Shown in pieces: positions 14,983 through 33,122 of a stretch of 64,000 bases of DNA. Under the pieces are notes generated by a model that ran no database searches, was not told the origin of the DNA, and was given only the letters and a program-made list of their open reading frames with translations. The stretch lies in contig NZ_JAODOO010000001.1 of assembly GCF_025398335.1 (NCBI RefSeq), forward strand, positions 124,001 through 188,000, read 5' to 3'. The first letter of the stretch is position 1; every line of letters starts with the position of its first letter. Origin of the DNA: Clostridium sp. CX1. GTDB taxonomy: Bacteria; Bacillota; Clostridia; Clostridiales; Clostridiaceae. The translations under genes were made by a program, and so were the position numbers.

Positions 14983-15010
14983 TTAATATTTCTCCTTTAT
15001 ATATTGAAGT

Positions 15011-15637: not shown

Positions 15638-15734
15638 CAAACACCTCCTAGGTTATTAAAATAATATTTTGAATATGATACAGCAGCTTAATAATAAATC
15701 GCATTACAACAAAAGTCAAGAATGTAAAATAATG

Positions 15735-15748
15735 TGTCAAATCCGACA
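15735..15748. promoter_or_regulatory. TGTCAAATCCGACA palindrome, copy 5
   Basis: Identical 14-mer to the copy at 5746-5759. It lies about 100 bp upstream of the leftward RNase H/initiator operon and 250 bp upstream of the BREX operon, so it could control either. Confidence 0.6.
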
Positions 15749-15800
15749 GGCTTAAATGATTTATGGTATTAAAGCTAAATGTAGAAGTATAAGGCTTCTA

Positions 15801-15890
15801 TGCTTGGGCATGAAAATAAAAAGTACTTTTGATAATGTAAACTTAGTATCTGATAAAAATATAGTTATTTTTATACCTATATTTACATAA
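15801..15890 (+). repeat. Paralogous intergenic module, copy 3 (diverged, short frame open)
   Basis: GCTTGGGC precedes an ATG (15810) that opens a 26-codon frame (M-K-I-K-S-T-F-D-N-V-N-L-V-S-D-K-N-I ...) ending at 15890. Aligned with copies 1 and 2 (M-K-L-R...F), this is the only one whose frame is not interrupted early. The rest of 15641-16001 shows no gene. Confidence 0.4.
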
Positions 15891-16001
15891 ACTAACAAAA
15901 TATTAGCTCCAGGAAGGATTTTTAAAATAAATAAAGAATATATAACAAGATATAGATTAATAAGTGACTAATTCTATAAATAAGTAGATAGTAGGTGAGG
16001 T

Positions 16002-16460
16002 ATGGAAGCTGAAAAATTAATTTATAGGATGACAGATGCTGTAGCTGCAGCTAAATCAAAAAGAAATAAACTTATCATTGTTAATACTAAAAAGGTAGCC
16101 TTTGAAAAAGCTATAGCGGCAATAGGATTAGATTGTATAAACCTTAATTTATTATTAAGTGAAAAATTACTAGAAATACCTGTTAGTAAAAGAAGTAGAA
16201 GTGTAGATAGTTTTATTAAGGACTTAATTAAAAGCAATAATATGAACACTTTAGCCTTAAGTAATTATGAGCTTCTTTTTTTGCCCGAATTAAAACAAGA
16301 CCCAATTAGACTTTTTGAAGACTTAAGTAAAGAAAGAGTTATCCTTATTGTCTGGGAAGGCAGGTATGAAAATAACAGTTTATATTATGCGGAGCCTTGG
16401 CATAGAGAATATAGAGAATATAAAGATTTAGATGCTATAATAGTACAAGGAAATATTTGA
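16002..16460 (+). CDS. brxF: BrxF-like protein of a BREX type 3 system
   Basis: 152 residues, the length of BrxF. The N-terminal part (S-K-R-N-K-L-I-I-V-N-T) is where the annotated family has a P-loop, but no classical GxxxxGKT is visible. The C-terminal A-E-P-W-H-R-E-Y-R-E-Y matches the conserved tail I associate with BrxF. It is the first gene of the operon, overlapping the region just before brxC, which is the expected type 3 position. The assignment rests on length, tail motif and context. Confidence 0.7.
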   Translation: MEAEKLIYRMTDAVAAAKSKRNKLIIVNTKKVAFEKAIAAIGLDCINLNLLLSEKLLEIPVSKRSRSVDSFIKDLIKSNNMNTLALSNYELLFLPELKQDPIRLFEDLSKERVILIVWEGRYENNSLYYAEPWHREYREYKDLDAIIVQGNI

Positions 16461-16474
16461 AAGGTGGAAGTTAT

Positions 16475-19400
16475 ATGAAATACAGTGAATTGATTCATTT
16501 TGAACCTGTTGAGTCTATAGTTCAGTTAAGAGAAACCTCTCAGCAGGATTATGCTTTTAATTTAATTGATACTTATGTAATATCAGACAGAATGGCAGAA
16601 CTAATAGATGAAGTAATTATTGAACAATTGCAATTTGAAAAACCTGCAGACAATAAAGGATTATTAGTAGTTGGTAACTATGGTACAGGTAAATCACACT
16701 TAATGAGTGTTATTTCTACTATTGCTGAAACTGAGGGAACCAGTGACAGAATTAATAATGCCAGGGTAGCTAAAAGAGCAAAGGAAATAGAAGGTAAGTT
16801 TAAAGTTATACGCTCTGAAATTGGTGCTACTACTATGACTTTAAGAGATTTTATCTGTGAAGAGATAAGTTATCAGCTTCAAGAGATGGGAATAGATTTT
16901 ACTTTTCCACCTATGGATAAGGTAAGAAGTAATAAAGATGCCTTTGTAGAGATGATGGGTAAATTCAATGAAATGTATCCAGAGCAAGGGTTACTTGTAG
17001 TTGTGGATGAGTTACTAGATTATTTAAGAACAAGAAGAACACAAGAACTAATACTAGACTTAGGTTTTTTACGTGAGCTAGGTGAAATTTGTAGGTTTAC
17101 ACGCTTTAGATTTATTTCTGGTGTTCAGGAGATGCTTTTTGATAATCCAAAGTTTCAGTTTGTGGCTGAGCAATTAAGAAGAGTTAAAGAGCGTTTTGAA
17201 CAAGTTAATATAGTAAGAGAAGATATAGCTTATGTTGTAACCCAAAGACTTTTAAAGAAGGATGAAAAGCAAAAGGCAATTATAAGAGAGCATCTTCAAA
17301 AGTTTACTAAGTTTTATGATAAGTTAAATGAAAGAATGGAAGAGTATGTTTCGTTATTCCCTATCCATCCTTCCTATATATCAACCTTTGAAAAGGTAAT
17401 AGTGGCAGAAAAAAGAGTAATACTTAAGACGATTAGTAATGAAATGAAAAAGCTACTGAATACCGAAGTGCCTGAAGATAGACCAGGTTTGATTTCTTAC
17501 GATAGCTACTGGCAATATATTGAGGCAGATACCTCTTTAAAGAGTAATCCTGATATTAGAGAAGTAATGACTAAGTCAAAAATTCTACAGGATAGAATTG
17601 AAAATGCTTTTACTAGACCAACTTATAAGACTGTTGCTTTAAGGATAGTATATGCTTTATCAGTAAATAGGTTAACTACTGGTGATATTTATACTAAGCT
17701 AGGTGTTACTTCAGAAGAATTAAGGGATGGATTATTTTTGTTTCATCCTAGTGTAGCTGATGAGGATGGTGACTTTCTTAGAACTTCAATAGAGTCTATA
17801 TTAAAAGAAATATTAAAAACTGTTAGCTGGCAGTTCATATCCTTCAATGATGCTAACGGTCAGTATTACATAGATATAAATAAGGATATAGCTGTAGATG
17901 ATCTTATTGAACAAAGAGCAGAAAGTTTGGTAGGAGATCAGCTAGATAGATATTATTTTGAGGTGCTAGAGCAGTTAACAGAAAGATCTAAAAATACTTA
18001 TATAACTGGCTATAGAATATGGACTTATGAACTACCTTGGTGGACCTGTAAAGTAACTAGACAAGGTTATTTATTCTTTGGAGCACCAAATGATCGTTCA
18101 ACTGCACAACCACCAAGAGACTTTTATATATATATGCTGCAGATTTTCGAAGTTCCTAAATTTAAAGATGAGAATAAGGCTGATGAAGTATTCTTTAAGC
18201 TAAAAGTAAAGGATGAAAGTTTTATTCGTTCACTAAAATTTTATGCTGGAAGTAGAGAAATGGCAGCCTCAGCTCCTTCAGGAACAAAAAATTTGTATGA
18301 GGAAAAAGCTAAAGAGTATCTACAGAGACTTACTAGGTGGCTTAGAGATAATTTCTTAAGCGCCTTTGAGGTTACCTATAAGGGAGTGACTAAAAAAGTG
18401 GTTGAAGGAACTAAAGCTTTACCACCACAGGCAAGTGTTAAAGAAATAATTGATAATGTAGCTGCTACATATCTATCCTCAAATTTTGATGAAAAATATC
18501 CGCTATATCCTCATTTTTCTAAACTTAACACTGTTATGACTAAAGATAATAGGCCAGTATATCTTCAAGAAGCTATAAAATATTTGGCTGGAAACAAAAC
18601 TAAGAGTGGTGCAGCAATATTAGAAGGTTTGGTAATGCTTCAGGAGGAAAAGGTGAAGCTTGATAATTCTGGCTTTGCAAAATGGGTAACTGATATTTTA
18701 GAAGCAAAAGGTCAAGGGCAAGTAGTAAATAGAGATGAACTTATAGAAGTTATCTATACTATGCAGGGAACAGAGGATGTTGAATTAGTAAAAGAATTGA
18801 AAATTGAACCTGAATTATTTGCTGTTGTACTTGTTGCCTTAGTTTATAATGGAGATATTGTGCTAACTATAAATGGAACTCAATATGATGCTATGAAGCT
18901 AGATCAGCTTGTGAAGTTATCTATAACTGATATTATTAATTTCAGCCATATTAAAAGACCGAGCGGACTTCCTATGCCTGCCTTGAAGGCACTTTTCGAG
19001 TTGCTTGATTTAGCTGAATATATGCTTCAGCAACAGAATTTAAACTATGGAGTAATTCAACTGAATGAAAAAGTAAATAAGCTGCTTAATGAGGTTGTTA
19101 TAACCCTACAGACTGTAAAAACTGGTATACCTTGTTGGGAGGGAACGGTTTTAAATGTAGCAGAACAACAACAATACAGTGAACTTTTAAGTAAGTTAAA
19201 AACTTTCCTTGAAGCTTTACTTGTGTTCAATGCACCAGCAAAACTGAATAATTTTAAATTTACAATTGAAGAAATTAAGGAACAAAAGGCAGGGTTAGAT
19301 TTACTTGAGAAAGTTAAGAGACTACAACAAAAAGTAAATGAAGCTCAAGGGCTAGCTAATTATATTCTAACTGCTTCACAGCATTTGGCTTCTGACCATG

Positions 19401-20164
19401 AGTGGCAGGAAGAAGCTTTAATAGCTTTAGAAGATTTGTTAGAAGCAATAAAGAAAGAAACAGGTTATCAAACAGAACTTGTTAGGATTCAAGACATAAA
19501 AAAGAAATATCAAGATATTTACCTGGAGCTGCATAGTAAAGCACGCTTAAATGCTGCTGATGATAGTAGAAAAACTGCTCTTATGAACGATAAAAGACTT
19601 TCAGCACTTAGACAGTTAGCTACTATTGAATTACTACCTAAAGCTCATTTTGAAAGTTTGGTAAAGAATATTACAGCTTTAAAAACCTGCTGGAGTCTTA
19701 CAAAGGTTCAGCTTGACACTCAGGCTTATTGTCCATCTTGCAAATTTAGACCTAAAGATGAGGTAGTATTCAAGGGAGACAGACTTTCAAACTATGAAGA
19801 ACAACTACAGACTATGTTGGAGCAATGGACAGAGTTATTGTTGAATAACTTTAAAGATAAAGAAGTAAAAGCAAATATAAGTTTATTAAGTCCTGTGCAA
19901 CAAAACTTGACCAAAGAGTTATTGGATAAAGGCGAATTTACCTTGCCAATTGATAATAAATTAATTGAGGCAATAAAGCTATTACTTCAAGGAATAGAGA
20001 AGGTAGAAATAAAAATAGAAGAATTAAAGGAGTTAATGGGAAAGGGAAGCCCAATGACAGTAGAGGACATAAGATTCAGATTTGAGCAAATGCTAAAGCA
20101 GAAAGTAGGAACTAATCAAACAAGCAGAGTAAGAATTATGCTTGAGCATGAACAAAAGCAATAA
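16475..20164 (+). CDS. brxC: BrxC/PglY-type ATPase (DUF6079-like)
   Basis: About 1229 residues. Walker A in G-N-Y-G-T-G-K-S-H-L (about 67-76) and Walker B in L-L-V-V-V-D-E-L-L-D (about 170-180) define an AAA-like domain; the rest is helical, with a late C-P-S-C half zinc knuckle near residue 1090. BrxC/PglY is an essential ATPase of BREX and forms complexes with the other components. The ATG at 16475 follows AAAGGTGGAAG; the TTG at 16457 overlapping brxF is less likely. The short spacing implies translational coupling with brxF. Confidence 0.85.
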   Translation: MKYSELIHFEPVESIVQLRETSQQDYAFNLIDTYVISDRMAELIDEVIIEQLQFEKPADNKGLLVVGNYGTGKSHLMSVISTIAETEGTSDRINNARVAKRAKEIEGKFKVIRSEIGATTMTLRDFICEEISYQLQEMGIDFTFPPMDKVRSNKDAFVEMMGKFNEMYPEQGLLVVVDELLDYLRTRRTQELILDLGFLRELGEICRFTRFRFISGVQEMLFDNPKFQFVAEQLRRVKERFEQVNIVREDIAYVVTQRLLKKDEKQKAIIREHLQKFTKFYDKLNERMEEYVSLFPIHPSYISTFEKVIVAEKRVILKTISNEMKKLLNTEVPEDRPGLISYDSYWQYIEADTSLKSNPDIREVMTKSKILQDRIENAFTRPTYKTVALRIVYALSVNRLTTGDIYTKLGVTSEELRDGLFLFHPSVADEDGDFLRTSIESILKEILKTVSWQFISFNDANGQYYIDINKDIAVDDLIEQRAESLVGDQLDRYYFEVLEQLTERSKNTYITGYRIWTYELPWWTCKVTRQGYLFFGAPNDRSTAQPPRDFYIYMLQIFEVPKFKDENKADEVFFKLKVKDESFIRSLKFYAGSREMAASAPSGTKNLYEEKAKEYLQRLTRWLRDNFLSAFEVTYKGVTKKVVEGTKALPPQASVKEIIDNVAATYLSSNFDEKYPLYPHFSKLNTVMTKDNRPVYLQEAIKYLAGNKTKSGAAILEGLVMLQEEKVKLDNSGFAKWVTDILEAKGQGQVVNRDELIEVIYTMQGTEDVELVKELKIEPELFAVVLVALVYNGDIVLTINGTQYDAMKLDQLVKLSITDIINFSHIKRPSGLPMPALKALFELLDLAEYMLQQQNLNYGVIQLNEKVNKLLNEVVITLQTVKTGIPCWEGTVLNVAEQQQYSELLSKLKTFLEALLVFNAPAKLNNFKFTIEEIKEQKAGLDLLEKVKRLQQKVNEAQGLANYILTASQHLASDHEWQEEALIALEDLLEAIKKETGYQTELVRIQDIKKKYQDIYLELHSKARLNAADDSRKTALMNDKRLSALRQLATIELLPKAHFESLVKNITALKTCWSLTKVQLDTQAYCPSCKFRPKDEVVFKGDRLSNYEEQLQTMLEQWTELLLNNFKDKEVKANISLLSPVQQNLTKELLDKGEFTLPIDNKLIEAIKLLLQGIEKVEIKIEELKELMGKGSPMTVEDIRFRFEQMLKQKVGTNQTSRVRIMLEHEQKQ

Positions 20165-20175
20165 GGAGAGATAAG

Positions 20176-22980
20176 ATGGCTAAAGAATATACTGAACAGC
20201 TAGAACTATTTGAAGATAAATCTAGTAAAGAAGGACCTGTAACATGTTTAGGTATGACCTTTGAAAGTGATGAAGCTAGAAGATCATATTTTACTGAGGA
20301 ACTAAGGAAAAAGCTACCTGAATTAAGGGAAATTGAAGGATTTCCAATAGGTGAGGATGAAGATATCCTCGCCTTGTCAGATCCTCCATATTATACAGCG
20401 TGTCCTAATCCGTTTATAAATGATTTTATAAATGTTTGGGAGAATGAAAAGAAAGAATTAAATGAAGGTTATGAAGAAGAATATCATAGACAACCTTTTG
20501 CAGCAGATGTGAGTGAAGGCAAGAATGATCCCATATATACTGCACATAGTTATCATACTAAAGTTCCACACAAAGCAATAATGCGATATATTTTACATTA
20601 TACTAATCCAGGAGATATAGTCTTAGATGCTTTTTCAGGAACTGGTATGACTGGTGTTGCTGCACAATTTTGTGAGGATAAAAAATATATTGAAAGTCTT
20701 GGAATTAATGTTTTAGAAAATGATGATATAGTTGATGGCGAAGGAGCAGTAAGTTCAAAAGTTGGAAAAAGAAACTCGATTTTATATGATTTATCGCCAT
20801 TAGCTACTCATATTTCATCGACTTTTAATAGTAGTATAAATTTGAATGAATTTCAAAGATATGCATTAAAATTAATTGAAGATGTAAATCAAAAATATGG
20901 ATGGATGTATTTAACTAATCATACTTTAGAGAATAAAACGTCCATAAATTTAGGTAGTGAAGTTGTAAAAGGAGAAATAAATTATGTAGTTTGGAGCGAA
21001 GTATTTATTTGTCCAAATTGTCAAGAAGAAGTAATATTTTGGGATGTTGCAGTAGATTTAGAAAATGAAAATGTTAAAGATAGTTTTTATTGTAAAAAAT
21101 GCAATTCCAATTTAACTAAAGATAATATGGATAGAGCATTTGAAGTGAAGTTTGATGAATTGTCTAAAAAAACATATAAGCAAGTAAAACGTGTACCTAT
21201 TCTAATAAATTATAGTGTAGGTTCTAAAAGGTATGAAAAAAGACCTGATCAAGATGATTTGAAACTGATTAGCACTATTGAAGAATTTCAAACAGATATT
21301 TTTTATCCTACTAATAATTTAATTAATGGAGATGAAATAGGAAGGTTATCAGCACTTGGAATAGAGTATACATTTCAATTTATGTCAAGAAGAAATAATA
21401 TAATTATTGGTGAATTATTAAATCAAATTAAGAAATCAAAGTTTTCGAAAATTGGGTTATTTTTGCTCACGGCATCTATACCAAATTTGACTTGGATGTA
21501 TAGGTGGAGAGCCAATAAAAAAGGAGGAACAACATCTGGAACTTACTACATATGTTCAACTCCCCAAGAGAATAATCCTTTAAATCAAGTAAGCAGAAAA
21601 TTGATGGATATTATGAAAGCATTAAATAATGGAAGGGTACCAGTAATTTCAACACAATCTTCATCAAATTTGAATATTAAAAAGAACTCAGTAGATTACA
21701 TTTTTACTGATCCACCATTTGGAGCAAATTTAATGTATTCAGAATTAAATTATCTATGGGAGTCCTGGCTCAACTTATATACAAATAACGAACGTGAGGC
21801 AATAGTTAATAGGTTTCAAGGAAAAAAATTAGATAATTATAAGGAATTGATGAGAGATTGTTTTGAAAATATGTATTATGTGTTAAAACCTGGAAGATGG
21901 ATGACGGTTGCATTTAGTAATTCACAAGCTAGTGTTTGGAATGCTATTCAGGAATCAATTGAAAATGCTGGATTTATAATAGCTAATGTAGCTGCTCTTG
22001 ATAAAAAACAGCTTAGTTTCAAAGCTTTAACAACTACAACTGCAGTCAAGCAAGATTTAGTTATATCTGCATATAAACCATCAGAGCAAATGTTTATTGA
22101 GATTAAAGAAGGAAGTAATAATGAAATTTCTGTATGGAGTTTCATAAGAAACCATTTGCAACAACTACCTATATTTATAGGTAGTAAAGGTAATGCAGAA
22201 TTAATAGTTGAACGTACACCAAGAGTTTTATTTGATCGAATGATAGCATATTATGTGCGAAATGGATATAGTGTGCCAATATCTTCAGCAGAATTCCAAG
22301 CTGGAGTAGTTCAACGTTTTCCAGTGCGTGATGGAATGGTATTTTTAGAAAATCAAGTCGCTGAATATGATAAAAAAAGAATTTTAGCTAAAGAATTTGT
22401 TCAAATGAGTTTATATGTTTCAGATGAAAACTCTGCAATTGAATGGTTAAGGCAACAGCTTATGAAGAAACCTCAGACAAGGCAAGATTTACATCCAAAC
22501 TTTATGAAGGAACTACAACATATTTCTAAGTATGAAAAACTTCCAGAACTTGATACATTATTAGAACAAAACTTTTTAAAGTATGATGGAATTGGTCCTG
22601 TGCCAAGTCAGATACATGCATATTTAAGTACAAACTTCAAGGATTTACGTGAACTTAGTAAAGAAGATCCTAAGCTCCAACAAAAAGCAAAGGATAGATG
22701 GTATGTACCTGATCCAAATAAACAAGCGGACTTAGAAAAACTTCGTGAAAAATCTCTACTTAGAGAGTTTAATTCTTATGTAGAGGAAATAGGAAAAAGT
22801 AAGAAGAAGCTAAAGCAGTTTAGGCTTGAAGCTATTAGAGCTGGTTTTAAGAAGGCTTGGGGAGAGAAAGATTATAAGACTATAGTTGAAGTTGGAGGAA
22901 AGATACCTGAAAATGTACTTCAGGAAGACGATAAACTATTAATGTATTATGATAATGCTCAAATAAGGCTTGGCATGTAG
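20176..22980 (+). CDS. pglX: PglX-type DNA methyltransferase of BREX (PglXI, DUF1156-like)
   Basis: 934 residues. S-D-P-P-Y-Y near residue 70, the SAM-binding motif D-A-F-S-G-T-G-M-T-G near 150 and a second T-D-P-P-F-G near 512 place it with adenine-specific DNA methyltransferases of the DUF1156/PglXI group. A zinc-ribbon-like pair (C-P-N-C ... C-K-K-C) sits near 280-315. In BREX this enzyme marks host DNA and is also needed for defence. AAGGAGAG precedes the ATG, 12 bp after brxC. The reading frame is intact. Confidence 0.85.
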   Translation: MAKEYTEQLELFEDKSSKEGPVTCLGMTFESDEARRSYFTEELRKKLPELREIEGFPIGEDEDILALSDPPYYTACPNPFINDFINVWENEKKELNEGYEEEYHRQPFAADVSEGKNDPIYTAHSYHTKVPHKAIMRYILHYTNPGDIVLDAFSGTGMTGVAAQFCEDKKYIESLGINVLENDDIVDGEGAVSSKVGKRNSILYDLSPLATHISSTFNSSINLNEFQRYALKLIEDVNQKYGWMYLTNHTLENKTSINLGSEVVKGEINYVVWSEVFICPNCQEEVIFWDVAVDLENENVKDSFYCKKCNSNLTKDNMDRAFEVKFDELSKKTYKQVKRVPILINYSVGSKRYEKRPDQDDLKLISTIEEFQTDIFYPTNNLINGDEIGRLSALGIEYTFQFMSRRNNIIIGELLNQIKKSKFSKIGLFLLTASIPNLTWMYRWRANKKGGTTSGTYYICSTPQENNPLNQVSRKLMDIMKALNNGRVPVISTQSSSNLNIKKNSVDYIFTDPPFGANLMYSELNYLWESWLNLYTNNEREAIVNRFQGKKLDNYKELMRDCFENMYYVLKPGRWMTVAFSNSQASVWNAIQESIENAGFIIANVAALDKKQLSFKALTTTTAVKQDLVISAYKPSEQMFIEIKEGSNNEISVWSFIRNHLQQLPIFIGSKGNAELIVERTPRVLFDRMIAYYVRNGYSVPISSAEFQAGVVQRFPVRDGMVFLENQVAEYDKKRILAKEFVQMSLYVSDENSAIEWLRQQLMKKPQTRQDLHPNFMKELQHISKYEKLPELDTLLEQNFLKYDGIGPVPSQIHAYLSTNFKDLRELSKEDPKLQQKAKDRWYVPDPNKQADLEKLREKSLLREFNSYVEEIGKSKKKLKQFRLEAIRAGFKKAWGEKDYKTIVEVGGKIPENVLQEDDKLLMYYDNAQIRLGM

Positions 22981-24961
22981 CAAGGATGTGAGTAATAAGT
23001 TGAAGAGTTGGAGAGATAATATAATGCTGCTGTTTGGAGAACCGATTCCGGTTCTCTCTTTCATTGCAGACCCTGATGGGTTATTAAAAGATAATGAGCT
23101 TGAAAAAAGACTAAAAGATAAAAATATTACAGTAGTAGAATATAGGGAGCCTATATTTTTTAGATATATCTATGAGAGAAAATATAGCAAGCTTGTAGAG
23201 GCTAAGAAAATAAATTTAGCAGTAATCTGTGAAGCAGAGGTTTTAAATTCTATTCCTTATGATCTTTTAGTTAAAGGAGTAGGAAGACATATAAGTGTTG
23301 GAGATTTATTTCCAAGCTTATCACCAACTATAGTGAGGGCTTTAGATAAAGAGGAACTTGATCTTTTGTATGAAGTTTATAAAGACTATAGTAGTTCTAA
23401 TTCTGATAGTGCTACCCTTGAGTTTGTTTTAAAGAAGTTATATGGGTTTCATTATGAGTTTATTAAAACTAAAGAGGAACTAATAAAATTTCTCTTATCA
23501 AAGCACTATAAAAATAAGGATTATCCTGAGATCATAAACAACTATATTATAGATAAACTTTCAAGTATAAATACTATAAAAGAATTGCCGCTAAAAGAAC
23601 TACTCACGTCTTCTAATTATTTTTATAACTACTTACAAGAGGCTTGGGGAGCTTTTATCGTGGAGTTGGTTAAAACAGGAACACAAATACAGGAAAGTGA
23701 ACTTGTAACAACAATTGAAAAGGATAAAGTTTTTTTCTTTGATACTGATGTGAGATTATTACTCGATAACCTGTTTGCTGAGGGAAAGCTTGAAGCAGTA
23801 AAAGTAGAGGCAAAAGGAGCTCTTCCAGGCTGGACAGAGTTTGGTGTAGTAGTTGATTATGCTGGAGCTGAAAAGAGTAAGCTGGTTGAAAAGATTTTTC
23901 ATTTGTCTGAGAAACTCAGTAGTAAAATGGCATATAGGGATTGGATAGATTCGGCTTACATTTATGCTGATATAATAAAAAAGAATTTAGAAATCAATGA
24001 AGGGGAAGATGAGGAACTAAATAATAATCTAAAGCAATTACAGCTGCAGATAGATAAAAGTTTTCAAGAATGGTTAGTTATTAACTATGAAGGTTTGGTA
24101 AACAGACCATATTTGCCACAACCGGTTATGCTTCAGCATATTCCTCATTATTTAGCTAGTAAAAAAGCTAAGAAGATTGCTTTAGTTGTTTTGGATTGTA
24201 TGAGTTTGCTCCAATGGTCTCAGATAAAAGATAGTATGAAGGATTTTTTTGAATTTGAAGAAAATGGAGTGTTTGCTTGGATACCAACTATAACTTCTAT
24301 ATCAAGGCAAGCTATTTTTGCTGGAGAACTACCAGTGTATTATTCAAAGTCAATTAATACTACTTCAAAGGAGAGTAATTATTGGCAGCTATTCTGGGAG
24401 AATCAGGGTATATTAAAGTTTTATGTAGATTATAAAAAGATTGTTAACACTTTAGATAGTGAAGATGAAATAATTTCTTTTAAAGCTAATAATAAGGTGC
24501 TTGCTGTGGTTATAGATACATTTGATGAATTTGTTCATTCAGCAACACAAGGTTACAAGGGCATACAGGCTGAAATAAGTATTTGGCTTAAGAAAGGCTA
24601 CTTAAAAGAACTGTTTGAAAGGTTATTAGAGCAAAATTATGAGCTTTATATTGTTTCAGATCATGGAAATAGAGAGTGTAGAGGTGTTGGAAAAATTACA
24701 GAGGGAATTTTAGCTTATACAAGAGGTGAACGCTTAAGGTTATATAACAGTAAGGTGCTACGGGATGAAGCGGCAGAAAAGTATAAGGCCCTAGCCTGGG
24801 ATAGTGCAGCTCTTCCTGAAGGAATGTACCCACTATTGGCTAAAGCTGGAGAGGCTTTTGTAGCAGAAGGGAAGACAGTTGTTAGTCACGGTGGAATGAG
24901 TATAGAAGAGGTAATTGTACCTTTTATAAAAATCGTAGGAAAAAACAAAAAGGAGAATTAA
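22970..24961 (+). CDS. pglZ: PglZ-family alkaline-phosphatase-superfamily protein (BREX)
   Basis: About 660 residues. The C-terminal PglZ domain (about 395-655) shows the metal-site motifs of the alkaline phosphatase superfamily: V-V-L-D-C-M-S (about 405), I-T-S-I-S-R-Q-A, V-S-D-H-G-N-R (about 562) and V-S-H-G-G-M-S-I-E-E-V (about 639). The start is uncertain: TTG 22970 overlaps the pglX stop, GTG 22988 is in frame just after it. PglZ is the signature BREX gene; its overlap with pglX shows a tight operon. Confidence 0.87.
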   Translation: MACSKDVSNKLKSWRDNIMLLFGEPIPVLSFIADPDGLLKDNELEKRLKDKNITVVEYREPIFFRYIYERKYSKLVEAKKINLAVICEAEVLNSIPYDLLVKGVGRHISVGDLFPSLSPTIVRALDKEELDLLYEVYKDYSSSNSDSATLEFVLKKLYGFHYEFIKTKEELIKFLLSKHYKNKDYPEIINNYIIDKLSSINTIKELPLKELLTSSNYFYNYLQEAWGAFIVELVKTGTQIQESELVTTIEKDKVFFFDTDVRLLLDNLFAEGKLEAVKVEAKGALPGWTEFGVVVDYAGAEKSKLVEKIFHLSEKLSSKMAYRDWIDSAYIYADIIKKNLEINEGEDEELNNNLKQLQLQIDKSFQEWLVINYEGLVNRPYLPQPVMLQHIPHYLASKKAKKIALVVLDCMSLLQWSQIKDSMKDFFEFEENGVFAWIPTITSISRQAIFAGELPVYYSKSINTTSKESNYWQLFWENQGILKFYVDYKKIVNTLDSEDEIISFKANNKVLAVVIDTFDEFVHSATQGYKGIQAEISIWLKKGYLKELFERLLEQNYELYIVSDHGNRECRGVGKITEGILAYTRGERLRLYNSKVLRDEAAEKYKALAWDSAALPEGMYPLLAKAGEAFVAEGKTVVSHGGMSIEEVIVPFIKIVGKNKKEN

Positions 24962-24963
24962 AT

Positions 24964-25668
24964 ATGCATAAACCTGTAGGTTTTGATCAAAAAATTGAAT
25001 TAAAGCATTTAGATGTAACAATAAAAGAAGCAAGAGTTTCTGACAGAAAAGATATGTATGGTAAGCTTGATGAGTATCTTAAACAAGATATAAAAGGAGA
25101 TAAGTCTAGAAAAAATGCTATTACTATGCTTATGAAGATTTGGTACTTAGTTGATAAGGAGCAGGAGTCTATTAAGGAACAGGCTTATGAATTATATCCA
25201 ATTTTAGAAGAAGAACAGCGATTAATTTTACATTGGGGAATGACTCTACTAGCGTATCCTTTTTTTAAAGATGTTATTGAAGAAATGGGTAACCTTTTTA
25301 GATTACAGAATGAGGTTTCCAGTCAACAGCTGGGCAGAAGGATTAAAATGTTATATGGAGATAGAAGACGTGTTGAAGTTGCAACTAGTGCAGTTCTGAT
25401 GAGCTTAAAAACCTGGGGGATTATTGAACGTGGCAAAAATCAGGTTTATACCTTAAACAAAAAAACAGCTTTGGAAGAGGTTAAGTTAAAAAACTGGTTA
25501 TTGAAGGTGCTCTTAAGTGTGTCTGAATATAAAACTATGCCTTTAACGATGATTAGTAATTTGAACTTATTATTTCCTTTTGATTTAAAGCTGAATATAA
25601 ATGAAATAGATACAACAGAAATAAAAATTGACAGACAAGGTCTAGATACGTACATGTTGAGCCTTTAA
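24964..25668 (+). CDS. BREX-operon protein of unknown family (234 aa)
   Basis: ATG two bases after the pglZ stop, with GGAG upstream. I do not recognise the sequence as DUF1819 (BrxA), although size and position would suit a BrxA-like accessory. The part around residues 110-160 (L-G-R-R-I-K-M-L-Y-G-D-R-R-R-V ... V-L-M-S-L-K-T-W-G-I-I-E-R) looks like a winged helix with many Arg/Lys, suggesting DNA binding. The N-terminal 100 residues are helical. Fully embedded in the operon, so very likely part of the defence system. Confidence 0.6.
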   Translation: MHKPVGFDQKIELKHLDVTIKEARVSDRKDMYGKLDEYLKQDIKGDKSRKNAITMLMKIWYLVDKEQESIKEQAYELYPILEEEQRLILHWGMTLLAYPFFKDVIEEMGNLFRLQNEVSSQQLGRRIKMLYGDRRRVEVATSAVLMSLKTWGIIERGKNQVYTLNKKTALEEVKLKNWLLKVLLSVSEYKTMPLTMISNLNLLFPFDLKLNINEIDTTEIKIDRQGLDTYMLSL

Positions 25669-25682
25669 AAGGGGGAAGAATT

Positions 25683-28600
25683 ATGCTGAAGCAGGGGGAT
25701 ACAATTAGAGGAGTGCAATTTCCTGAAACTGTAGAAATTAAGCATTTTGAAAAGGTAAGTGAGGATTATTATTTAATTGAAGCCTTAGGAAGAGAAAGTC
25801 AAAAATTTTATGAATTAATGATAGACAAGAATGAAATTCTTGCCTTAGAAAAGTTAAATTCTTCTGAAGAACAGCAAGTTCAGTTAACAGCCTCAGAACT
25901 TCAACATTTTCTTCAATTTAAAAACTTTCTAATAGAAGAAAAGTACTCAGAGAGCCGAGCTCTTGGAGGAAGAAATTTAATGCCTTTACCTCACCAGATA
26001 GAAGCGGTTTACGGAAGATTTCTTCAAATGCCCAAGCTGCGCTTTTTATTAGCAGATGATCCTGGTGCTGGAAAGACAATAATGGCTGGGATGCTTATAA
26101 AGGAACTGCTAGCAAGAAAACTGCTACAACGTGTTTTAATATTGGTTCCTCCACTTGTATTAACCCAGTGGCAAAATGAACTCTACGAAAAGTTTGGTTT
26201 AAGCTTTGATATTATTACAAGGGAGACTCTAAAAAGTAGAAGACATAATCCTTTTGCAGAGAACAATTTTTGCTTGGCCTCTATGTTCTGGGTTATTAGA
26301 GAGGATGTAAAGGTACTTTTAAGTGAAGCTGATTATGATTTAGTTATAATTGATGAGGCTCATAAACTAGCAGCTTATACTCATGGTAAAGTAAAGAAAA
26401 AGGTAACTAGAACAAAACTCTATCAATTAGGTGAAAGCTTACTTAGACAAGTAGAGAATTGTTTGCTATTAACTGCAACTCCACATAAGGGGGATGCCGA
26501 AAATTTTAGGCACCTTATGAGTTTGCTGGACTATGATATCTTTGCAAATGTGTCTGCAAGAGAGTCTTTAAAGGATAAAAGTAATCCTTTTATCGTTAGA
26601 AGACTTAAAGAGAACTTAAAAAATTTTGACGGTACACCTTTGTTTCCTAAAAGAACAACTAAAACTATTGAATATAACTTATCTGATAAGGAGAAAGAGT
26701 TATACGAAGAGGTTACGGATTATGTAAGGTTTTATTTTAATAAGGCGATGAATAATGGCAATAATAGTACTGCTTTTGCAATGATGTTGCTCCAAAGAAG
26801 ATTAAGTTCCTCAATAGAGGCTATCTATTTATCCTTAAAACGTAGAAGTGAGAGATTGAAGGAACTTCTTAATGTAACTCTTGAGGAAAGAAAGAAATTA
26901 TTGAAATCTACTGAGGAAGCTGAAGTTGAACAATATGAGGAAGAAGACTATGGTACTCAGGAAAAGTTAGAGACTTTAATGGAGAAGGCTATAATAAATA
27001 TTGACCTCGATGAGTTGAGAGTAGAATTGGAAGTATTAGAAGGCTTAATTGAAAAAGCAGAAGTGCTTAAATTTTCCTCAGTAGAAAGAAAGTATGAGGA
27101 ACTTGAAAAAACTCTTTTTGGTGAAGAGGGCTTACTAAATAAAGGTGAGAAAATACTTATTTTTACTGAATCTGTGGATACACTGCTATATCTTGAAGGG
27201 AAGCTCCTTAATCATGTAGATATAATAGCTAAAATTACCGGTAAGTATTCTATTGAAGAAAGAAGAAAACAAGTGGAACTTTTCAGAGGGGCTTGCAAGA
27301 TTATGTTAGCTACTGATGCTGGTGGTGAGTCTATAAATCTGCAGTTTTGTAATCAGATGATTAACTATGATATTCCTTGGAATCCTAACAAATTAGAGCA
27401 GAGAATGGGTCGTATACATAGAATAGGTCAGAACAATGAGGTTTTTGTCTTCAATCTTGTAGCAAAAAATACAAGAGAGGGAGAGGTTATGACCAGGCTT
27501 CTTGATAAGATGGAACAAATGCGAGAAGATTTAGGTACAGATTTAGTCTATGATTTTATTGGTGAGGTTTTAGAGGATAATGATTTTGACTTACCAACCT
27601 TGATGCAGCAAGCAGTTTTAAATAGGGAGAAGCTAGAGTCTGTGCTTATTAATATGGATAAAGTGCTTTCAGAGGAACATAAGAAGTTATTAGAATTTTA
27701 TAAGAAAGAAAAAATTGACGAGGAAGCTATCGATTTAACAAGCCTAAGAAGAGAGCAGTATGAACTTTCTGTAGAACATACACCTGTAAGAGTTTACAGT
27801 AATTTCAGTAAAAATATTTTAACTAAAAAAAGAGTACGTCTTAGTGAAACTAATGATAATAAAATTATTAGAATAGATAGACTGCCAAAGTTTATAAAAG
27901 ACTTTGCAAAAAAGAATAAAATTAACCTTCAGGATAACCTAGAGTCCTATAAATTTACTGCGCATAAAGCCCTTGAAGCAGAGGAAGTAGCATTAATTAA
28001 CCAAGATCATCCTTTATTTAAACTAAGTATAGAACTTACAAGGGCTGAGTATGAAAAAATTGCCTTTGATAGATGCATGGTTAAATATCCCTGCAAGGAT
28101 CCACTATCAGTCGAGATTTATCAAGTTGGGATAGGTGATGGAACTGGAAAAGAATTAATTAGTAAAGTTTTTTATTTTGCTAAGAGAAGTAGTGGCAAAA
28201 TTGAGAGTCTAGACAACTATTGGTTACAAGGCTTTAATTTTAGTGGAGATTGTATTCAATTAGAAAAAGTTGAAAGCAAGGAAGCTTTAGCTTATGTTTA
28301 TAAAGAACTTGCAGAATTGAAAAAAAATATAAAAGCTAAGCGAGATAAACAGCTTGAGAAGTTAAGTGATTTCTTGAATAAGACCTTCCAAAGACAGTAC
28401 AATGATACACTTGAAAGACTTGCTCAATATCAGCAGGATAATATAGACAACAAAAATACTATACTAATTAACCAAATGAATGCTGCTTTAATTGATATAG
28501 AGGCAAGAAAAGAAGAAAGAATATCAGAGGTAGAACACCAAAGAAATATCACAATGAAACCTCCTAAACTTATTGCTAAGCTTGAATTAGTTCCTGATGG

Positions 28601-28904
28601 TACAGGTAATAGGGAGTTTCCTGAAGATTTTAAGGAAGTAGTTGAAAAGTATGAACATCATAATGGACGAAGTAATTTTAAAAGCTTCAAGGCCTATGCT
28701 TTAGTGGATTTCTACAGTGAAAGATATAATGGTGAACCAAGGTTTATTATAGTAGCAACAGATAGAAATGTTCTTTATTCGAAGGATTATTTAGAAGACC
28801 TAGGAGATATTCTTAACTATACCTATGTTTATTTTATTGATGCTAGTAATAATATTACAGAACATTCTCTGAAAGATGAATGGATGTTATTTTTTAGAGA
28901 TTGA
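25683..28904 (+). CDS. brxHII: BrxHII-type SF2 helicase (BREX type 3)
   Basis: 1073 residues. Walker A in D-D-P-G-A-G-K-T-I-M-A-G (about 122), D-E-A-H box (about 222), T-A-T-P-H-K-G (motif III) and the C-terminal helicase motif E-Q-R-M-G-R-I-H-R-I-G-Q (about 573) show an SNF2/DEAH-like helicase. A long C-terminal extension ends in a region (Y-A-L-V-D-F-Y-S ... F-I-I-V-A-T-D-R-N) that resembles DUF3883-like nuclease-fold tails. AAGGGGGAAG precedes the ATG. A helicase of this type is part of the described type 3 BREX gene set. Confidence 0.82.
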   Translation: MLKQGDTIRGVQFPETVEIKHFEKVSEDYYLIEALGRESQKFYELMIDKNEILALEKLNSSEEQQVQLTASELQHFLQFKNFLIEEKYSESRALGGRNLMPLPHQIEAVYGRFLQMPKLRFLLADDPGAGKTIMAGMLIKELLARKLLQRVLILVPPLVLTQWQNELYEKFGLSFDIITRETLKSRRHNPFAENNFCLASMFWVIREDVKVLLSEADYDLVIIDEAHKLAAYTHGKVKKKVTRTKLYQLGESLLRQVENCLLLTATPHKGDAENFRHLMSLLDYDIFANVSARESLKDKSNPFIVRRLKENLKNFDGTPLFPKRTTKTIEYNLSDKEKELYEEVTDYVRFYFNKAMNNGNNSTAFAMMLLQRRLSSSIEAIYLSLKRRSERLKELLNVTLEERKKLLKSTEEAEVEQYEEEDYGTQEKLETLMEKAIINIDLDELRVELEVLEGLIEKAEVLKFSSVERKYEELEKTLFGEEGLLNKGEKILIFTESVDTLLYLEGKLLNHVDIIAKITGKYSIEERRKQVELFRGACKIMLATDAGGESINLQFCNQMINYDIPWNPNKLEQRMGRIHRIGQNNEVFVFNLVAKNTREGEVMTRLLDKMEQMREDLGTDLVYDFIGEVLEDNDFDLPTLMQQAVLNREKLESVLINMDKVLSEEHKKLLEFYKKEKIDEEAIDLTSLRREQYELSVEHTPVRVYSNFSKNILTKKRVRLSETNDNKIIRIDRLPKFIKDFAKKNKINLQDNLESYKFTAHKALEAEEVALINQDHPLFKLSIELTRAEYEKIAFDRCMVKYPCKDPLSVEIYQVGIGDGTGKELISKVFYFAKRSSGKIESLDNYWLQGFNFSGDCIQLEKVESKEALAYVYKELAELKKNIKAKRDKQLEKLSDFLNKTFQRQYNDTLERLAQYQQDNIDNKNTILINQMNAALIDIEARKEERISEVEHQRNITMKPPKLIAKLELVPDGTGNREFPEDFKEVVEKYEHHNGRSNFKSFKAYALVDFYSERYNGEPRFIIVATDRNVLYSKDYLEDLGDILNYTYVYFIDASNNITEHSLKDEWMLFFRD

Positions 28905-28907
28905 TAA

Positions 28908-29225
28908 ATACAACAGACAACTATAGTAGAGGCAAAATCAATAATCGGAGTAAAACGTGAGGTAACTTTTCCTAATGTACCAATGGAGAGAGCTATTCAC
29001 CAATTAGAGAAGCTTGGAGAGCTACTTAATAAAGGGTATAGAGTACAGTATTATTTTGTTTCTCTTAGTCCTATAGTAAGAAAGGTAATTATAGACGACT
29101 ACTATAAGGAATATAAAGAACTTTTAAGAACTTGTGTTGAGGAAGGCCTAAGCATTAAGGGGATAACTTTGCAATATAATGGGAGTGAAATTATAGCTAG
29201 AGAAGGCTTAAAAATTGAGTTTTAA
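28908..29225 (+). pseudogene. sfsA: 5'-truncated sfsA relic (C-terminal nuclease domain)
   Basis: The frame between the helicase genes, read from just after a TAA at 28905, gives V-E-A-K-S-I-I-G-V ... F-P-N-V-P-M-E-R-A ... Y-Y-F-V-S-L-S-P and ends at 29225. This aligns along its length with the C-terminal half of SfsA (E. coli: V-K-S-V-T, F-P-D-A-V-T-E-R-G, I-F-F-A-V). The usual N-terminal half is missing, and there is no credible start: ATG 28983 has no ribosome binding site and would remove the E-x-K motif. So a relic of about 105 codons rather than an 80-residue gene. Confidence 0.72.
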
Positions 29226-29246
29226 ATAATATGAGGGGGTATAAAA

Positions 29247-32200
29247 TTGGGTAAGAAGATAATTAAACATATATCTATAAGAGTGCCTTGGCATGATAAT
29301 GGGTGGTCAGGAACAGTATGTCTTAATCCAAGCCATAATGACTCCTGCTTAAGGTTAAGGAGAATAGCAGAGCAAAGAGAAGATGAACTTGAAGAAGAGG
29401 TAGCTGGTAAATCTATAGAGTTTCTTGAACAAAATAAATGGCCATGCTGTATTGCAGAAAGAGGAACTTTTATGGCTCCTTTTGAATTTGAAAGGTTTGT
29501 ATCACATCCTTACAAGGATTCTTCACCAGAAACGCATGGTCACTTTGCACCAACTTTGCTAAAGTATCCAGCTTATTCTGCAGCAGCAGTTCCTTTTGGT
29601 TGGATGATGAAGGAAAATTATAAGTATTTAAAAGAAGAATTAGGACTAAAAGTTGATATTTCAAAGGAGCCTGAGCTTCCCTTTAAAACTATTTGGTATC
29701 AATCTAAATATAATCAAAGAGAGATTATGAATTACTTTTTCTCGGAAATAGAAGTTGGAGAATCTCTTTGTATATTTTATGCTAAACAAGTACCTTTTGT
29801 AGAGGATTCAAAAAGAGTCATCATAGGTATCGGAAAAGTAAAGGGAATGCTTCCAGCTAAAGAGTATGATTATACAGAGGCAAGAGATACAAAAGCTATG
29901 TTGTGGGAAACCATGATAAAGCACTCAATAAGACCAGATTTTAAGGAAGGCTTTATTATGCCCTATGCAGAGCTTATAGAATATTCAAAAGAAAATCCAA
30001 CTTTTGATATAAATGAAGTTGTAGCCTTTGCACCAGATGAAAGAAGAGAGGAGTTTTCTTATGCCACTGAACATGTTACTCATGATGCAGCTATAAATGC
30101 TTTACTTTCCTGTGCTAGTGCTTTAACTAAGATTAAAGACTACATAAGTGGTCCTTGGGATAGAGGTTTAAATTGGATAAATGAACAACTCTCTGAAGTA
30201 TGGCAGATGAGAGGAGCTTATCCTGGCTTGGGAGCAGCATTAAATGCCTTTGGAATTGAACTTGGTATGTTTGTTGCAAAAGAAATAATGGAGAAGATTG
30301 GAGAAGAGGAAGATCCTTGGCTATATATAGATAAAATGTTTATGGATCCGAAAAAGCATCTTTCACCACAATTAGCCTCAAGAATAGGTAAAACCTTGCA
30401 AGAAACCTGGAGTGTACTATCTGAAGAGAGAAAGTCCTTATTAAAGCTTCTGAGCAGATTTGAGTTAACCTCACTACAAGCACAGCTGCTTTATGTCCAA
30501 GAAGAAAGAGAGCAAAAATTAATTAAAGGTACTGATAGTGAACTACTTGCTAATCCTTATCTAATTTACGAGTCAACTAGAAATTGCATTGAGAAGGTTA
30601 GTTTATCCACTATTGATATGGGAGTGTTTCCTATAGAAAGTATTCAAAAGAAGTTTCCGCTTCAAGAACCTTCAGCTGTTGATACAGGTACAGATAAAAG
30701 AAGAGTTAGGGCGCTTACTATTAACTTACTTGAAACTGCTGCTTTAGAAGGACATACACTTCAGCCAAAAGGACTTATTATACAAAAAATAAGAAATCTT
30801 TCAATTGAGCCTGCTTGCCAAATTAATAGTGATATTATGCAGGTTGTTGAAAATTACTTTGAGGGCGCAATTGAACTAGTAGAAATGGTAGATGGCTCTA
30901 GAGCCTATCAACTTAAAAGGCTTGCTCAAATGGATGATATTATAAGAAGGGAAATTACTAAGAGATTAGGTGGTAAACGAATTAGTATAAATGAAGACTG
31001 GAGAGCAGCAGTTGACCGTGCCTTTGGATCTTTGGCTAGTATGCCTATTAAGGAACGAGATAAGGAAGAAAGAGCAAGAGTAGAGAAAACTAAAATTTTA
31101 GAGGAATTGTCACAGTCAAGATTTTCAATATTAATAGGACCAGCTGGTACTGGTAAAACTACGTTATTATCAATATTATGCAGTCAAAAAGATATAGCAG
31201 CAGGCGGAGTGTTACTTCTAGCACCAACAGGAAAAGCAAGAGTTCGTGTAGAAGAAGTAATAAAAGAATTAGGAGAAAAACTTACTGGCAATATTGATAT
31301 TAAGGCATGTACTTTGGCACAACATCTAGGTAAAAGTAAAAGATTTGATTATAGAACACAACAGTATAAATTGTCTGATAGACCGGCAGAGGAGGCACCA
31401 AGGACAGTAATAATTGATGAAAGTTCCATGCTAACAGAAGAAATGCTTGCAGCTTTGATTCAATCTTTAAAAGGGGTTCATAGGTTAATACTTGTAGGCG
31501 ATCCAAGTCAATTGCCTCCAATTGGACCGGGTAGACCTTTTGTTGATATAGTAGCAAAGTTGAAGCCTAGTAATATAGAAACTATATTTCCTAAAGTCGC
31601 ACAAGGTTATGGAGAATTAACCATTCCTAGAAGACAGACAGGAGAGGATAGATCAGATTTAAGAATGGCTGAATGGTTTAGCGGCAGATCAATGGCAGCT
31701 GCAGAAGATGATATCTTTGAGGAAGTTTTGAAAAACAATTCATCCTCAAGAATACAATTTATTAAATGGGATACCAATGAGCAACTCGAAAGTCTTTTAC
31801 TTGAAACCTTAGTGAAGGAACTTAAACTAAAAGATAAAGAGGATATTGTTAACTTTGATAAATCTTTAGGAGCAATTGAAGCCAATGGTTATACTTACTT
31901 TAATAAAGGCACAGCAAAGACTGCAGAAAAATGGCAGATTTTATCACCAGTTAAAACCATGCCACAAGGTGTATTTCAAATAAATAGGCTTATACATGAG
32001 ACTTTTAAGAGAAGTACTGTTGAGTCTGCAAATTATAAATGGAGAAAGATACCTAAACCTATGGGTATAGAGGAGATAGTGTATGGTGATAAAGTAATTA
32101 ATGTTGCTAATCACAGAAGAGATAATGTATGGCCTGAAGAAGGTGCGCAAGAGTATTTGGCAAATGGAGAAATTGGAGTTGTTCAAGGACAATTTAAGAC

Positions 32201-32951
32201 TAAAAACATGAAAGGATTACCTTGGGAACTTAAGGTTGAATTTTCTTCCCAAATTGGTTATCACTATGGCTTTTCAGATAAAGATTTTGGAGAAGAGAGA
32301 GAAGCTACACTTGAATTAGCTTATGCTCTTACGGTTCATAAGGCTCAAGGAAGTCAGTTTGGTATAGTTGTACTTGTATTGCCTAATCCTTGTAGGCTTT
32401 TATCAAGAGAATTATTATATACAGCTCTTACAAGACAAGAGGAAAGAATTATAGTTTTACATCAAGGAGTAATTTCTGATCTGAAGAAGTATGCTTCTGA
32501 AGTCTATTGTGAGGCTGCTAAAAGATATACAAACCTCTTTGAAGCTCCTTCAATAGTTGAAGTTCAAAATACTTTCCTTGAGGAAAGACTTATACATCGT
32601 ACAGCTAGAGGAGAGCTTGTTAGATCTAAATCTGAGGTCATTATTGCAGATCATTTATTTGAAAAAGGCATAGATTATTCCTACGAAAAGCCACTAATTG
32701 TAGGTGGCGTTACCCGTTATCCAGATTTCACTATTGAAGATGATGCTTCAGGAGAAACTTATTATTGGGAGCATTGCGGAATGATGTTTGATACTGATTA
32801 TAGACAAAGATGGGAAGCTAAGAAAGAGCTCTATAGGGAAAATGGTATAGTACCTGTAGAAGAAGGTGGAAATCTTATAATAACTGAAGATACTGAAAAT
32901 GGCGGTATTGATTCTAAGAAGATTAGGGATATAATCGATGAATTGTTTTAG
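29247..32951 (+). CDS. RecD-like helicase with C-terminal PD-(D/E)XK-like nuclease domain
   Basis: 1234 residues, TTG start after GAGGGGG. The N-terminal about 500 residues are an unrecognised domain beginning R-V-P-W-H-D-N-G-W. The SF1 helicase core has Walker A G-P-A-G-T-G-K-T-T (about 631), I-I-D-E-S-S-M (about 722), G-D-P-S-Q-L-P and V-H-K-A-Q-G-S-Q-F-G (about 1030), closest to RecD. The C-terminal 110 residues hold S-K-S-E-V-I-I-A, Y-P-D-F-T-I and Y-Y-W-E-H-C-G-M, a PD-(D/E)XK-like pattern. It is not in the basic type 3 BREX set I know but is cotranscribed with it, so probably an added effector or processing enzyme. Confidence 0.78.
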   Translation: MGKKIIKHISIRVPWHDNGWSGTVCLNPSHNDSCLRLRRIAEQREDELEEEVAGKSIEFLEQNKWPCCIAERGTFMAPFEFERFVSHPYKDSSPETHGHFAPTLLKYPAYSAAAVPFGWMMKENYKYLKEELGLKVDISKEPELPFKTIWYQSKYNQREIMNYFFSEIEVGESLCIFYAKQVPFVEDSKRVIIGIGKVKGMLPAKEYDYTEARDTKAMLWETMIKHSIRPDFKEGFIMPYAELIEYSKENPTFDINEVVAFAPDERREEFSYATEHVTHDAAINALLSCASALTKIKDYISGPWDRGLNWINEQLSEVWQMRGAYPGLGAALNAFGIELGMFVAKEIMEKIGEEEDPWLYIDKMFMDPKKHLSPQLASRIGKTLQETWSVLSEERKSLLKLLSRFELTSLQAQLLYVQEEREQKLIKGTDSELLANPYLIYESTRNCIEKVSLSTIDMGVFPIESIQKKFPLQEPSAVDTGTDKRRVRALTINLLETAALEGHTLQPKGLIIQKIRNLSIEPACQINSDIMQVVENYFEGAIELVEMVDGSRAYQLKRLAQMDDIIRREITKRLGGKRISINEDWRAAVDRAFGSLASMPIKERDKEERARVEKTKILEELSQSRFSILIGPAGTGKTTLLSILCSQKDIAAGGVLLLAPTGKARVRVEEVIKELGEKLTGNIDIKACTLAQHLGKSKRFDYRTQQYKLSDRPAEEAPRTVIIDESSMLTEEMLAALIQSLKGVHRLILVGDPSQLPPIGPGRPFVDIVAKLKPSNIETIFPKVAQGYGELTIPRRQTGEDRSDLRMAEWFSGRSMAAAEDDIFEEVLKNNSSSRIQFIKWDTNEQLESLLLETLVKELKLKDKEDIVNFDKSLGAIEANGYTYFNKGTAKTAEKWQILSPVKTMPQGVFQINRLIHETFKRSTVESANYKWRKIPKPMGIEEIVYGDKVINVANHRRDNVWPEEGAQEYLANGEIGVVQGQFKTKNMKGLPWELKVEFSSQIGYHYGFSDKDFGEEREATLELAYALTVHKAQGSQFGIVVLVLPNPCRLLSRELLYTALTRQEERIIVLHQGVISDLKKYASEVYCEAAKRYTNLFEAPSIVEVQNTFLEERLIHRTARGELVRSKSEVIIADHLFEKGIDYSYEKPLIVGGVTRYPDFTIEDDASGETYYWEHCGMMFDTDYRQRWEAKKELYRENGIVPVEEGGNLIITEDTENGGIDSKKIRDIIDELF

Positions 32952-33122
32952 GAATAATTAATAAAGCTATATGTGATAATTATATAAATTTTTAATCACT
33001 TGGTTTAAGATGGTGCGATTAATAATTTATTACTATACATTAATTAAAATGTACAAGCGTTTGATTAAGAGAATAACGTTATGATTGTTTTATATTAATT
33101 TATAATATTTTATAACAATTTA

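Follow-up and report, generated by a model that had tools for sequence, protein, structure and literature searches.

Gene content of the operon

The window analysed here, a 64,000-nucleotide stretch of the Clostridium sp. CX1 genome (contig NZ_JAODOO010000001.1, positions 124,001 to 188,000), contains a bacteriophage exclusion (BREX) operon of type 3 that appears to have exchanged its helicase and carries an additional gene for a RecD-like protein of 1234 amino acids, the PADLOC defence candidate PDC-S68. Eight open reading frames (ORFs), all on the forward strand, span positions 16002–32951; an earlier sequence-only reading of this DNA had their frames and coordinates right. The spacing between genes is tight from the operon start to the helicase gene, and 342 bp separate the helicase stop codon from the PDC-S68 start. 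The encoded proteins were scanned with PADLOC, Pfam and NCBI profiles, the PADLOC scan covering all eight ORFs (best 25 matches for the helicase and the methyltransferase PglX).

The profiles assign the products of the first five genes to the core of type 3 BREX (BrxF, BrxC, PglXI, PglZ and BrxA). The brxF gene (16002–16460) matches NF033453 (114 bits, cut-off 50) and PDLC02497, and brxC (16457–20164) codes for a DUF6079 ATPase (PF19557, 1380 bits; PDLC02482, 1565 bits) with an intact GNYGTGKS sequence, which we take to be its Walker A motif. The adenine methyltransferase gene pglXI (brxXI; 20176–22980; PDLC02541, 1303 bits) retains what are presumably the methyltransferase motifs (DPPY and FSGTGMT) and two CxxC pairs (residues 279 and 306). 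The profile match, the CxxC pairs and the phylogeny described below point to the inserted zinc-finger target recognition domain of type 3 BrxXI/PglXI proteins. Next comes a pglZ gene of the BREX-3 type (22970–24961; NF033449 BREX_PglZ_3, 603 bits, cut-off 250). These matches confirm the BrxF, BrxC, PglX-type methyltransferase and PglZ proteins recognized in the sequence-only reading, as well as its placement of pglZ upstream of the helicase. The 234-residue protein that it had described as standing in place of a clear BrxA is itself BrxA (24964–25668), matching PDLC02437 (179 bits over residues 3–231) and PDLC02444 (141 bits).

The operon thus has five of the six core proteins of type 3 BREX. 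It differs in the sixth: the profiles, trees and pairwise scores presented below identify no BrxHII, the helicase encoded canonically between pglX and pglZ, and place in its stead, after brxA, a RapA-like SNF2 helicase of a BREX-related, DUF499-system kind (25683–28904). PDC-S68 (29247–32951) is extra. Because BrxHII is missing, we place the operon on a variant branch within type 3 rather than among the canonical systems.

Affinity of the helicase

The sequence-only reading had named the helicase BrxHII, an identity that the profiles do not support. The PADLOC model of BrxHII gives 282 bits and the model named BrxHI|BrxHII 354 bits, against 1249 bits for PDLC02620, a model labelled DrmD. The closest solved protein is RapA, and what we take to be the motor motifs are intact. 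BrxHII, DrmD and the helicases of BREX-related (BR) systems are mutually homologous. The name of the type-1 BR systems comes from a 2026 survey of BREX (PMC12839542); they combine a DUF499 ATPase and an SNF2 helicase with a methyltransferase, which our scans identified as DUF1156. Nine of the 10 loci that we labelled BR have both the DUF499 and the DUF1156 gene, the exception being L153 (DUF499 unconfirmed within its stretch).

Phylogenies separated the window helicase from BrxHII. A quick tree of 58 SNF2 helicases recovered the 24 canonical BrxHII rows as one group (98) and placed the window helicase and those of two variant loci (L139 and L140, see below) with DUF499-system helicases (100). 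In a careful 35-row tree with an outgroup, variant and BR helicases grouped with support of 100/99.9, and the approximately unbiased (AU) test rejected variant and BrxHII helicases as one clade (p-AU 3.99e-05). The variant rows of these trees are the window, L139 and L140, the helicase of G479 and, also from the PglX tree below, the genes of G910 having been left out; L067 and L225 are long-branch rows. Pairwise scores of the variant helicases run from 377 to 493 bits to BR and from 223 to 287 bits to BrxHII. On these comparisons, the window helicase groups with BREX-related, DUF499-centred helicases and not with canonical BrxHII. The likeness to type-1 BR systems is confined to this affinity, since the ATPase and methyltransferase of the window are those of type 3 BREX. 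No DUF499 or DUF1156 match was found in the window, in L139–L141 or in the two G910 loci (L315 and L316), and the DUF1156 query matched L142 weakly (45 bits).

A recurring variant and the phylogeny of PglX

A search of 398 genomes of the phylum with the PADLOC model closest to the window helicase identified three other genomes (G479, G512 and G553) with matches of 1128–1290 bits. All three have the gene order pglX-pglZ-brxA-helicase, and their helicases are 59–60% identical to that of the window. With G910, a genome of another genus of the same family, the order is seen in four other genomes altogether (loci L139, L140 and L142, and G910). G512, whose class was represented by three genomes only, has a second, fragmentary copy of the variant (L151).

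The PglX proteins of the window, L139, L140, L142 and an Enterococcus faecium locus (L154) form one clade (100/100). This clade is nested at 99/100 in a 14-row set that includes eight canonical loci and one without the helicase, with BR methyltransferases as the outgroup. The gene order, the different helicase and the monophyletic PglX support a separate sub-branch within type 3, as judged from sequence comparisons. Because the history of PglX differs from that of the helicase, the motor was apparently acquired from elsewhere by a core that is type 3 BREX, in which it replaced the original helicase.

L154 and a second locus, L228, lie on conjugative plasmids of E. faecium. Both have pglX-pglZ-brxA followed by a hypothetical gene where the helicase would be expected, and insertion sequences lie around or within their BREX-3 operons.

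The PDC-S68 protein and its neighbours

The 1234-residue protein matches the whole PDC-S68 model (PDLC05065, 1677 bits, residues 5–1233) and is translated from a TTG codon behind the sequence GAGGGGG. A conserved N-terminal region without a Pfam match (residues ~1–480) precedes a RecD-like superfamily 1 (SF1) helicase (~480–1080) and a C-terminal region (~1110–1234). The best PDB matches are RecD chains; the sequence-only reading had also called the protein RecD-like. The likeness to RecD and RecD2 helicases lies in the SF1 core; PDC-S68 differs from RecD2 in its low TIGR01448 score (184 bits, under the cut-off of 500), its long N-terminal region and its nuclease-like tail. In an alignment of 50 sequences, residues D1160, E1175, H1176 and K1192 of the tail are invariant and E1130 is nearly so; residues of the helicase are likewise invariant. 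We take the pattern of the tail to resemble that of PD-(D/E)XK nucleases.

The sequence-only reading had proposed a distinct subtype with its own effector, a proposal that the 1234-residue gene would undermine if absent from otherwise identical operons. The subtype stands in the form of the sub-branch described above. PDC-S68 is not its defining effector, because the gene is missing from L139 and L140, which have the same order and are readable downstream. Among the three other variant operons readable there, only G910 has it, as a near-identical copy.

A first broad search for the 1234-residue protein in 57 relatives was uninformative, most matches being shorter RecD-like helicases. The PDC-S68 model at E ≤ 1e-60 found, among 391 genomes of the class, only the window's own genome, in addition to the control genome of Methanocaldococcus jannaschii. 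From a scan of genome contigs we used the best 80 of 511 confirmed relatives, a sample biased to close relatives of the window protein and with many short contigs. These 80 come from many bacterial phyla and one archaeon, Methanolobus, and one of them (L067) adjoins a type 3 BREX operon, of the canonical order brxC-pglX-helicase-pglZ-brxA and followed by PDC-S68. In a quick PDC-S68 tree, the window protein and that of L067 belong to two different starred sets, which suggests two recruitments of the gene by type 3 BREX.

Six plasmids added to the best 80 relatives gave 86 loci, in which we counted the genes within five genes of PDC-S68. An SNF2 gene is present in 25, a type I restriction gene in 18 (at least two subunits in 13), a TmtA-type gene in 15 and a type III methyltransferase gene in six; in 45 of the 86, one or more of the SNF2, type I and type III classes are represented. 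In six type I loci (L040, L052, L054, L056, L089 and L101), PDC-S68 sits between hsdM or hsdS and hsdR. Restriction, SNF2 or TmtA families occur in 33 of the 50 loci of at least 18 kb and in none of 40 control stretches, a comparison in which the families were derived from those same PDC-S68 loci (a locus's own sequences being excluded in each case). The controls are two stretches each from 20 genomes of the window's phylum, whereas the PDC-S68 loci are spread over many phyla. Leaving out TmtA, 31 of the 50 have such families, and 18 have type I or III genes. The contexts are intermixed on the PDC-S68 tree, with 21 changes against a mean of 23.5 after shuffling (equally low in 18 of 200). PDC-S68 is an optional, widespread accessory beside many systems.

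SNF2 and TmtA genes occur together in 10 of the 86 loci. Sets of SNF2, TmtA and PDC-S68 genes recur (L031, L043, L051, L059, L078, L081, L105 and the viral contig L229) and constitute an apparent system of their own. Among the best 80 matches on viral contigs, L229–L231 are 53–54% identical to the window protein, L232 is partial, L233 is 32% identical and the remainder are far weaker. The SNF2 and TmtA genes of L229 lie upstream of PDC-S68, as do type I genes in L231, and a type I restriction gene lies downstream in L230.

Transfer of the operon as a block

The operon lies in a block of 18.1 kb (14861–32954) that the window shares with G910 at 99.72% identity over 18,095 aligned positions (blastn). 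All 50 differences lie outside brxA and outside the small ORF between the helicase and PDC-S68 genes, and the right edge of the block is the PDC-S68 stop codon. A search of 206 genomes of the family at E ≤ 1e-150 found the helicase in G910 and in the window's own genome only. The block moved recently as one unit. In G910 two oppositely oriented IS66 copies (L315, 144–2199; L316, 5564–7948), which match each other exactly over at least 2292 bp, flank the block together with the gene that adjoins its right edge, a bracketing that resembles a composite transposon; no IS66 match was found in the window. Within the block and divergent from the operon, a gene on the reverse strand (15011–15640) codes for a protein with Pfam RNase H-like (RVT_3) and SWIM zinc-finger domains. 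Of the loci tested, G910 has this gene, whereas the other variant loci, those of E. faecium and 38 further loci of type 3 lack it.

Beyond the right edge, 51 bp past it, G910 has a gene of 1584 codons on the reverse strand (L315, 2578–7332) for a sacsin-type ATPase with a SACS domain, fused to an SF1 helicase, which PADLOC labels TmtA. Full-length relatives of its product (46–61% identical) are encoded directly 3' of PDC-S68 in L053, L062 and L077. Because of this arrangement, we consider the pair to be probably old and the second gene to have been lost from the window, where tblastn finds no TmtA beyond the helicase similarity of PDC-S68 itself. The TmtA-like protein probably works with PDC-S68 in G910, and the two may form a two-gene module.

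The space between the helicase and PDC-S68 genes contains an SfsA-like stretch (28905–29225) that starts right after the helicase stop codon and includes an ORF of 80 codons (28983–29225), identical in G910. The SfsA domain (PF03749) scores 22.4 bits on the 80-residue product alone (cut-off 22.8) and 38.7 bits on 28905–29180, with one TAA codon inside. The stretch retains the sequence VEAKS but has no start codon upstream of position 28983, where the first in-frame ATG has no visible ribosome-binding site, and a full-size sfsA match (175.6 bits) lies elsewhere in the genome, on C21. With SfsA similarity setting in immediately behind the helicase gene and no visible ribosome-binding site at its own start, the ORF looks like part of the remnant of an sfsA-type nuclease gene truncated at its 5' end. 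The remnant perhaps marks the point at which PDC-S68 was joined to the operon. A helicase–SfsA fusion, with the SfsA stretch in the helicase frame, was rejected: two stop codons intervene, and the helicases of L139 and L140 end near the same length (1067 amino acids).

Proposed mechanism and alternative explanations

The explanation that we favour, at a probability of about two in three, is that the window carries a mobile type 3 BREX operon of a recurring sub-branch in which a DUF499-type SNF2 translocase, encoded after brxA, replaced BrxHII, and PDC-S68 was added as a DNA-degrading accessory. It draws together the gene content and order, the place of PglX inside type 3, the affinity of the helicase, the optional presence of PDC-S68 and the transfer of the block. 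PglXI would mark the host DNA, and BrxF, BrxC, BrxA and PglZ would detect and nick unmarked invader DNA, steps that follow published work on BREX, chiefly type 1, as summarized in the survey (PMC12839542). The SNF2 motor would take over the remodelling role of BrxHII. PDC-S68 could then load at the nicks, ends or single-stranded DNA produced by the BREX core, unwind the DNA with its RecD-like SF1 core and cut it with the predicted C-terminal nuclease, acting as an auxiliary effector that destroys the invader DNA.

Several observations weigh against this explanation. The variant is known from only four other genomes, one of them through recent transfer. The helicase frame of G479 is interrupted, with two TAA codons in a match at a contig end, and that of G910 is broken after about residue 887; such interruptions in two of the four other genomes lower our confidence. 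No helicase match was found in L154, which belongs to the PglX clade, and no helicase is annotated in L228, so the helicase may be dispensable. The root of the PglX tree depends on a very long BR branch, and the helicases of the variant and BR are also grouped through long branches. A tree without outgroup resolves variant, BR and BrxHII simply as three separate groups, so the BR-like affinity rests on the outgroup trees and the pairwise scores. Searches with the C-terminal part of PDC-S68 by itself gave no match to a Pfam model or to a PDB sequence, and the protein could act independently and merely be carried along.

We consider it improbable that the operon is an ordinary type 3 BREX with a divergent, relocated BrxHII and that PDC-S68 lies next to it in a defence island by chance. 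The core genes do score above the NCBI BREX-3 cut-offs, the candidate helicases are all homologous with RapA as the closest solved protein, PDC-S68 is optional, and transposase and recombinase genes lie to the left of the block. However, a clade of variant and BrxHII helicases is rejected by the AU test (p = 4e-5), and PDC-S68 has a strong ribosome-binding site of its own, reads in the same direction 342 bp behind the helicase and moved in the same block. Far less probable still is a hybrid of BREX and DISARM (defence island system associated with restriction-modification) whose helicase would be DrmD. The window helicase is related to the DrmD of class 1 DISARM, and its best PADLOC model carries that label, but it scores 377 bits against NCBI DISARM_DrmD, under the cut-off of 610. 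No drmA, drmB or drmC gene emerged from the PADLOC scan of the eight ORFs (best 25 matches for the helicase and PglX), the one DrmA match being the helicase itself, and the hybrid was rejected because no other DISARM genes were seen in the operon. The label itself is probably too broad and may mislead annotation. The four best scorers of PDLC02620 are BREX helicases, and seven of the next eight whose surroundings were examined adjoin DUF499 and DUF1156 genes.

A minority possibility that we take seriously is that PDC-S68, together with TmtA in the loci that have it, forms a self-contained defence of one or two genes that only travels along with the BREX block. Plasmids of Rhizobium phaseoli, Vibrio fluvialis and Embleya carry it without an annotated restriction, BREX or SNF2 gene as its direct neighbour (a NACHT gene follows in Rhizobium), and 17 of the 50 long loci have none of the neighbour families. 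A long TmtA gene lies directly 3' of PDC-S68 in L053, L062, L077 and G910, and the context changes often along the PDC-S68 tree. Against such independence stand the neighbour families in 33 of the 50 long loci and none of the 40 controls, and the position of PDC-S68 inside the six type I loci. As a broader reading, we tentatively propose, at somewhat less than even odds, that PDC-S68, alone or with TmtA, is a portable module for DNA destruction that reads a product (nick, end or single-stranded DNA) common to unrelated modification-guided defences. It would serve type I and type III restriction, SNF2 systems and type 3 BREX, the last of these through two or more independent recruitments, and the motor of type 3 BREX would itself be exchangeable and obtainable from BREX-related systems. 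The apparent replacement of the motor in this operon and the addition of a portable helicase-nuclease gene suggest that defences of this kind are put together from parts that can be interchanged.

There is still debate about how phage DNA is destroyed by BREX. A natural exchange of motors probes the need of the helicase for contacts specific to its partners, and the recurrence of an added helicase-nuclease in the vicinity of several modification-based systems points to a DNA intermediate that these have in common. Both questions are open to direct tests, since operons that have PDC-S68 and operons that lack it occur naturally. The PDC names in PADLOC are said to come from a preprint that reportedly described defence genes embedded in other systems. 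The literature searched, in which subscription journals and preprints were thinly covered, yielded neither PDC-S68 by name nor an association of PDC-S68 with BREX or a swap between BrxHII and a DUF499-type helicase. According to the BREX survey, BrxHII is present in 77% of type 3 taxa and other helicases replace BrxL in types 5 and 6 (PMC12839542). Its accessible part does not describe the swap seen here, and the terms RecD, DrmD, SfsA, UvrD and DISARM do not occur in its main text (PMC12839542).

Other type 3 BREX loci and flanking genes

A PglZ_3 search of the 398 phylum genomes gave matches in 47, at 55 places. Four of these are G000, G479, G512 and G553, and 41 correspond to 39 loci (G802:C37 and G774 each combine two adjoining places); the survey did not extend to the 10 remaining, partial places (G664, G589, G477, G566, G685, G630:C4, G775, G518:C18, G627 and G802:C19). 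A helicase match lies upstream of pglZ in 26 of the 39 loci, and three end too close to a contig end to be assessed (L179, L206 and L219). The other 10 have pglX but no helicase match between it and pglZ (L194, L199, L200, L209, L213, L214, L221, L222, L224 and L226), nor was a helicase found after brxA in any of them, less than 2 kb being readable there in L209, L214 and L224. Because such loci are scattered on the PglX tree (five changes for eight rows), BrxHII seems to have been lost repeatedly in type 3 BREX. Loss as the whole story was set aside, replacement being one outcome beside the repeated losses. The contig of L224, whose PglX is 72% identical to that of the window, ends after brxA.

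PDC-S68 was found in none of the 39 loci, 30 of which have at least 4 kb readable after brxA. Two loci with a full pglZ from an order search (L317 and L318), not counted among the 39, encode a BrxHII-like helicase in the canonical position between pglX and pglZ and gave no match to PDC-S68; two further, partial places of that search were left out. Three alphaproteobacterial plasmids have the canonical order, with an extra gene before pglX in two.

To the left of the block, the window contains a serine recombinase gene on the reverse strand (3304–4812), a Mutator-family transposase gene (10966–12216) and a transposase/integrase-core pair (12418–13979). A segment of 193 bp (3314–3506) recurs at 98% identity adjoining the block in G910. 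Right after the block (33175–34761) lie a DUF4258 gene, an MqsA/helix-turn-helix-like gene and an M78 peptidase gene matching PADLOC capP (167 bits), which possibly form a regulatory or toxin–antitoxin-like unit.

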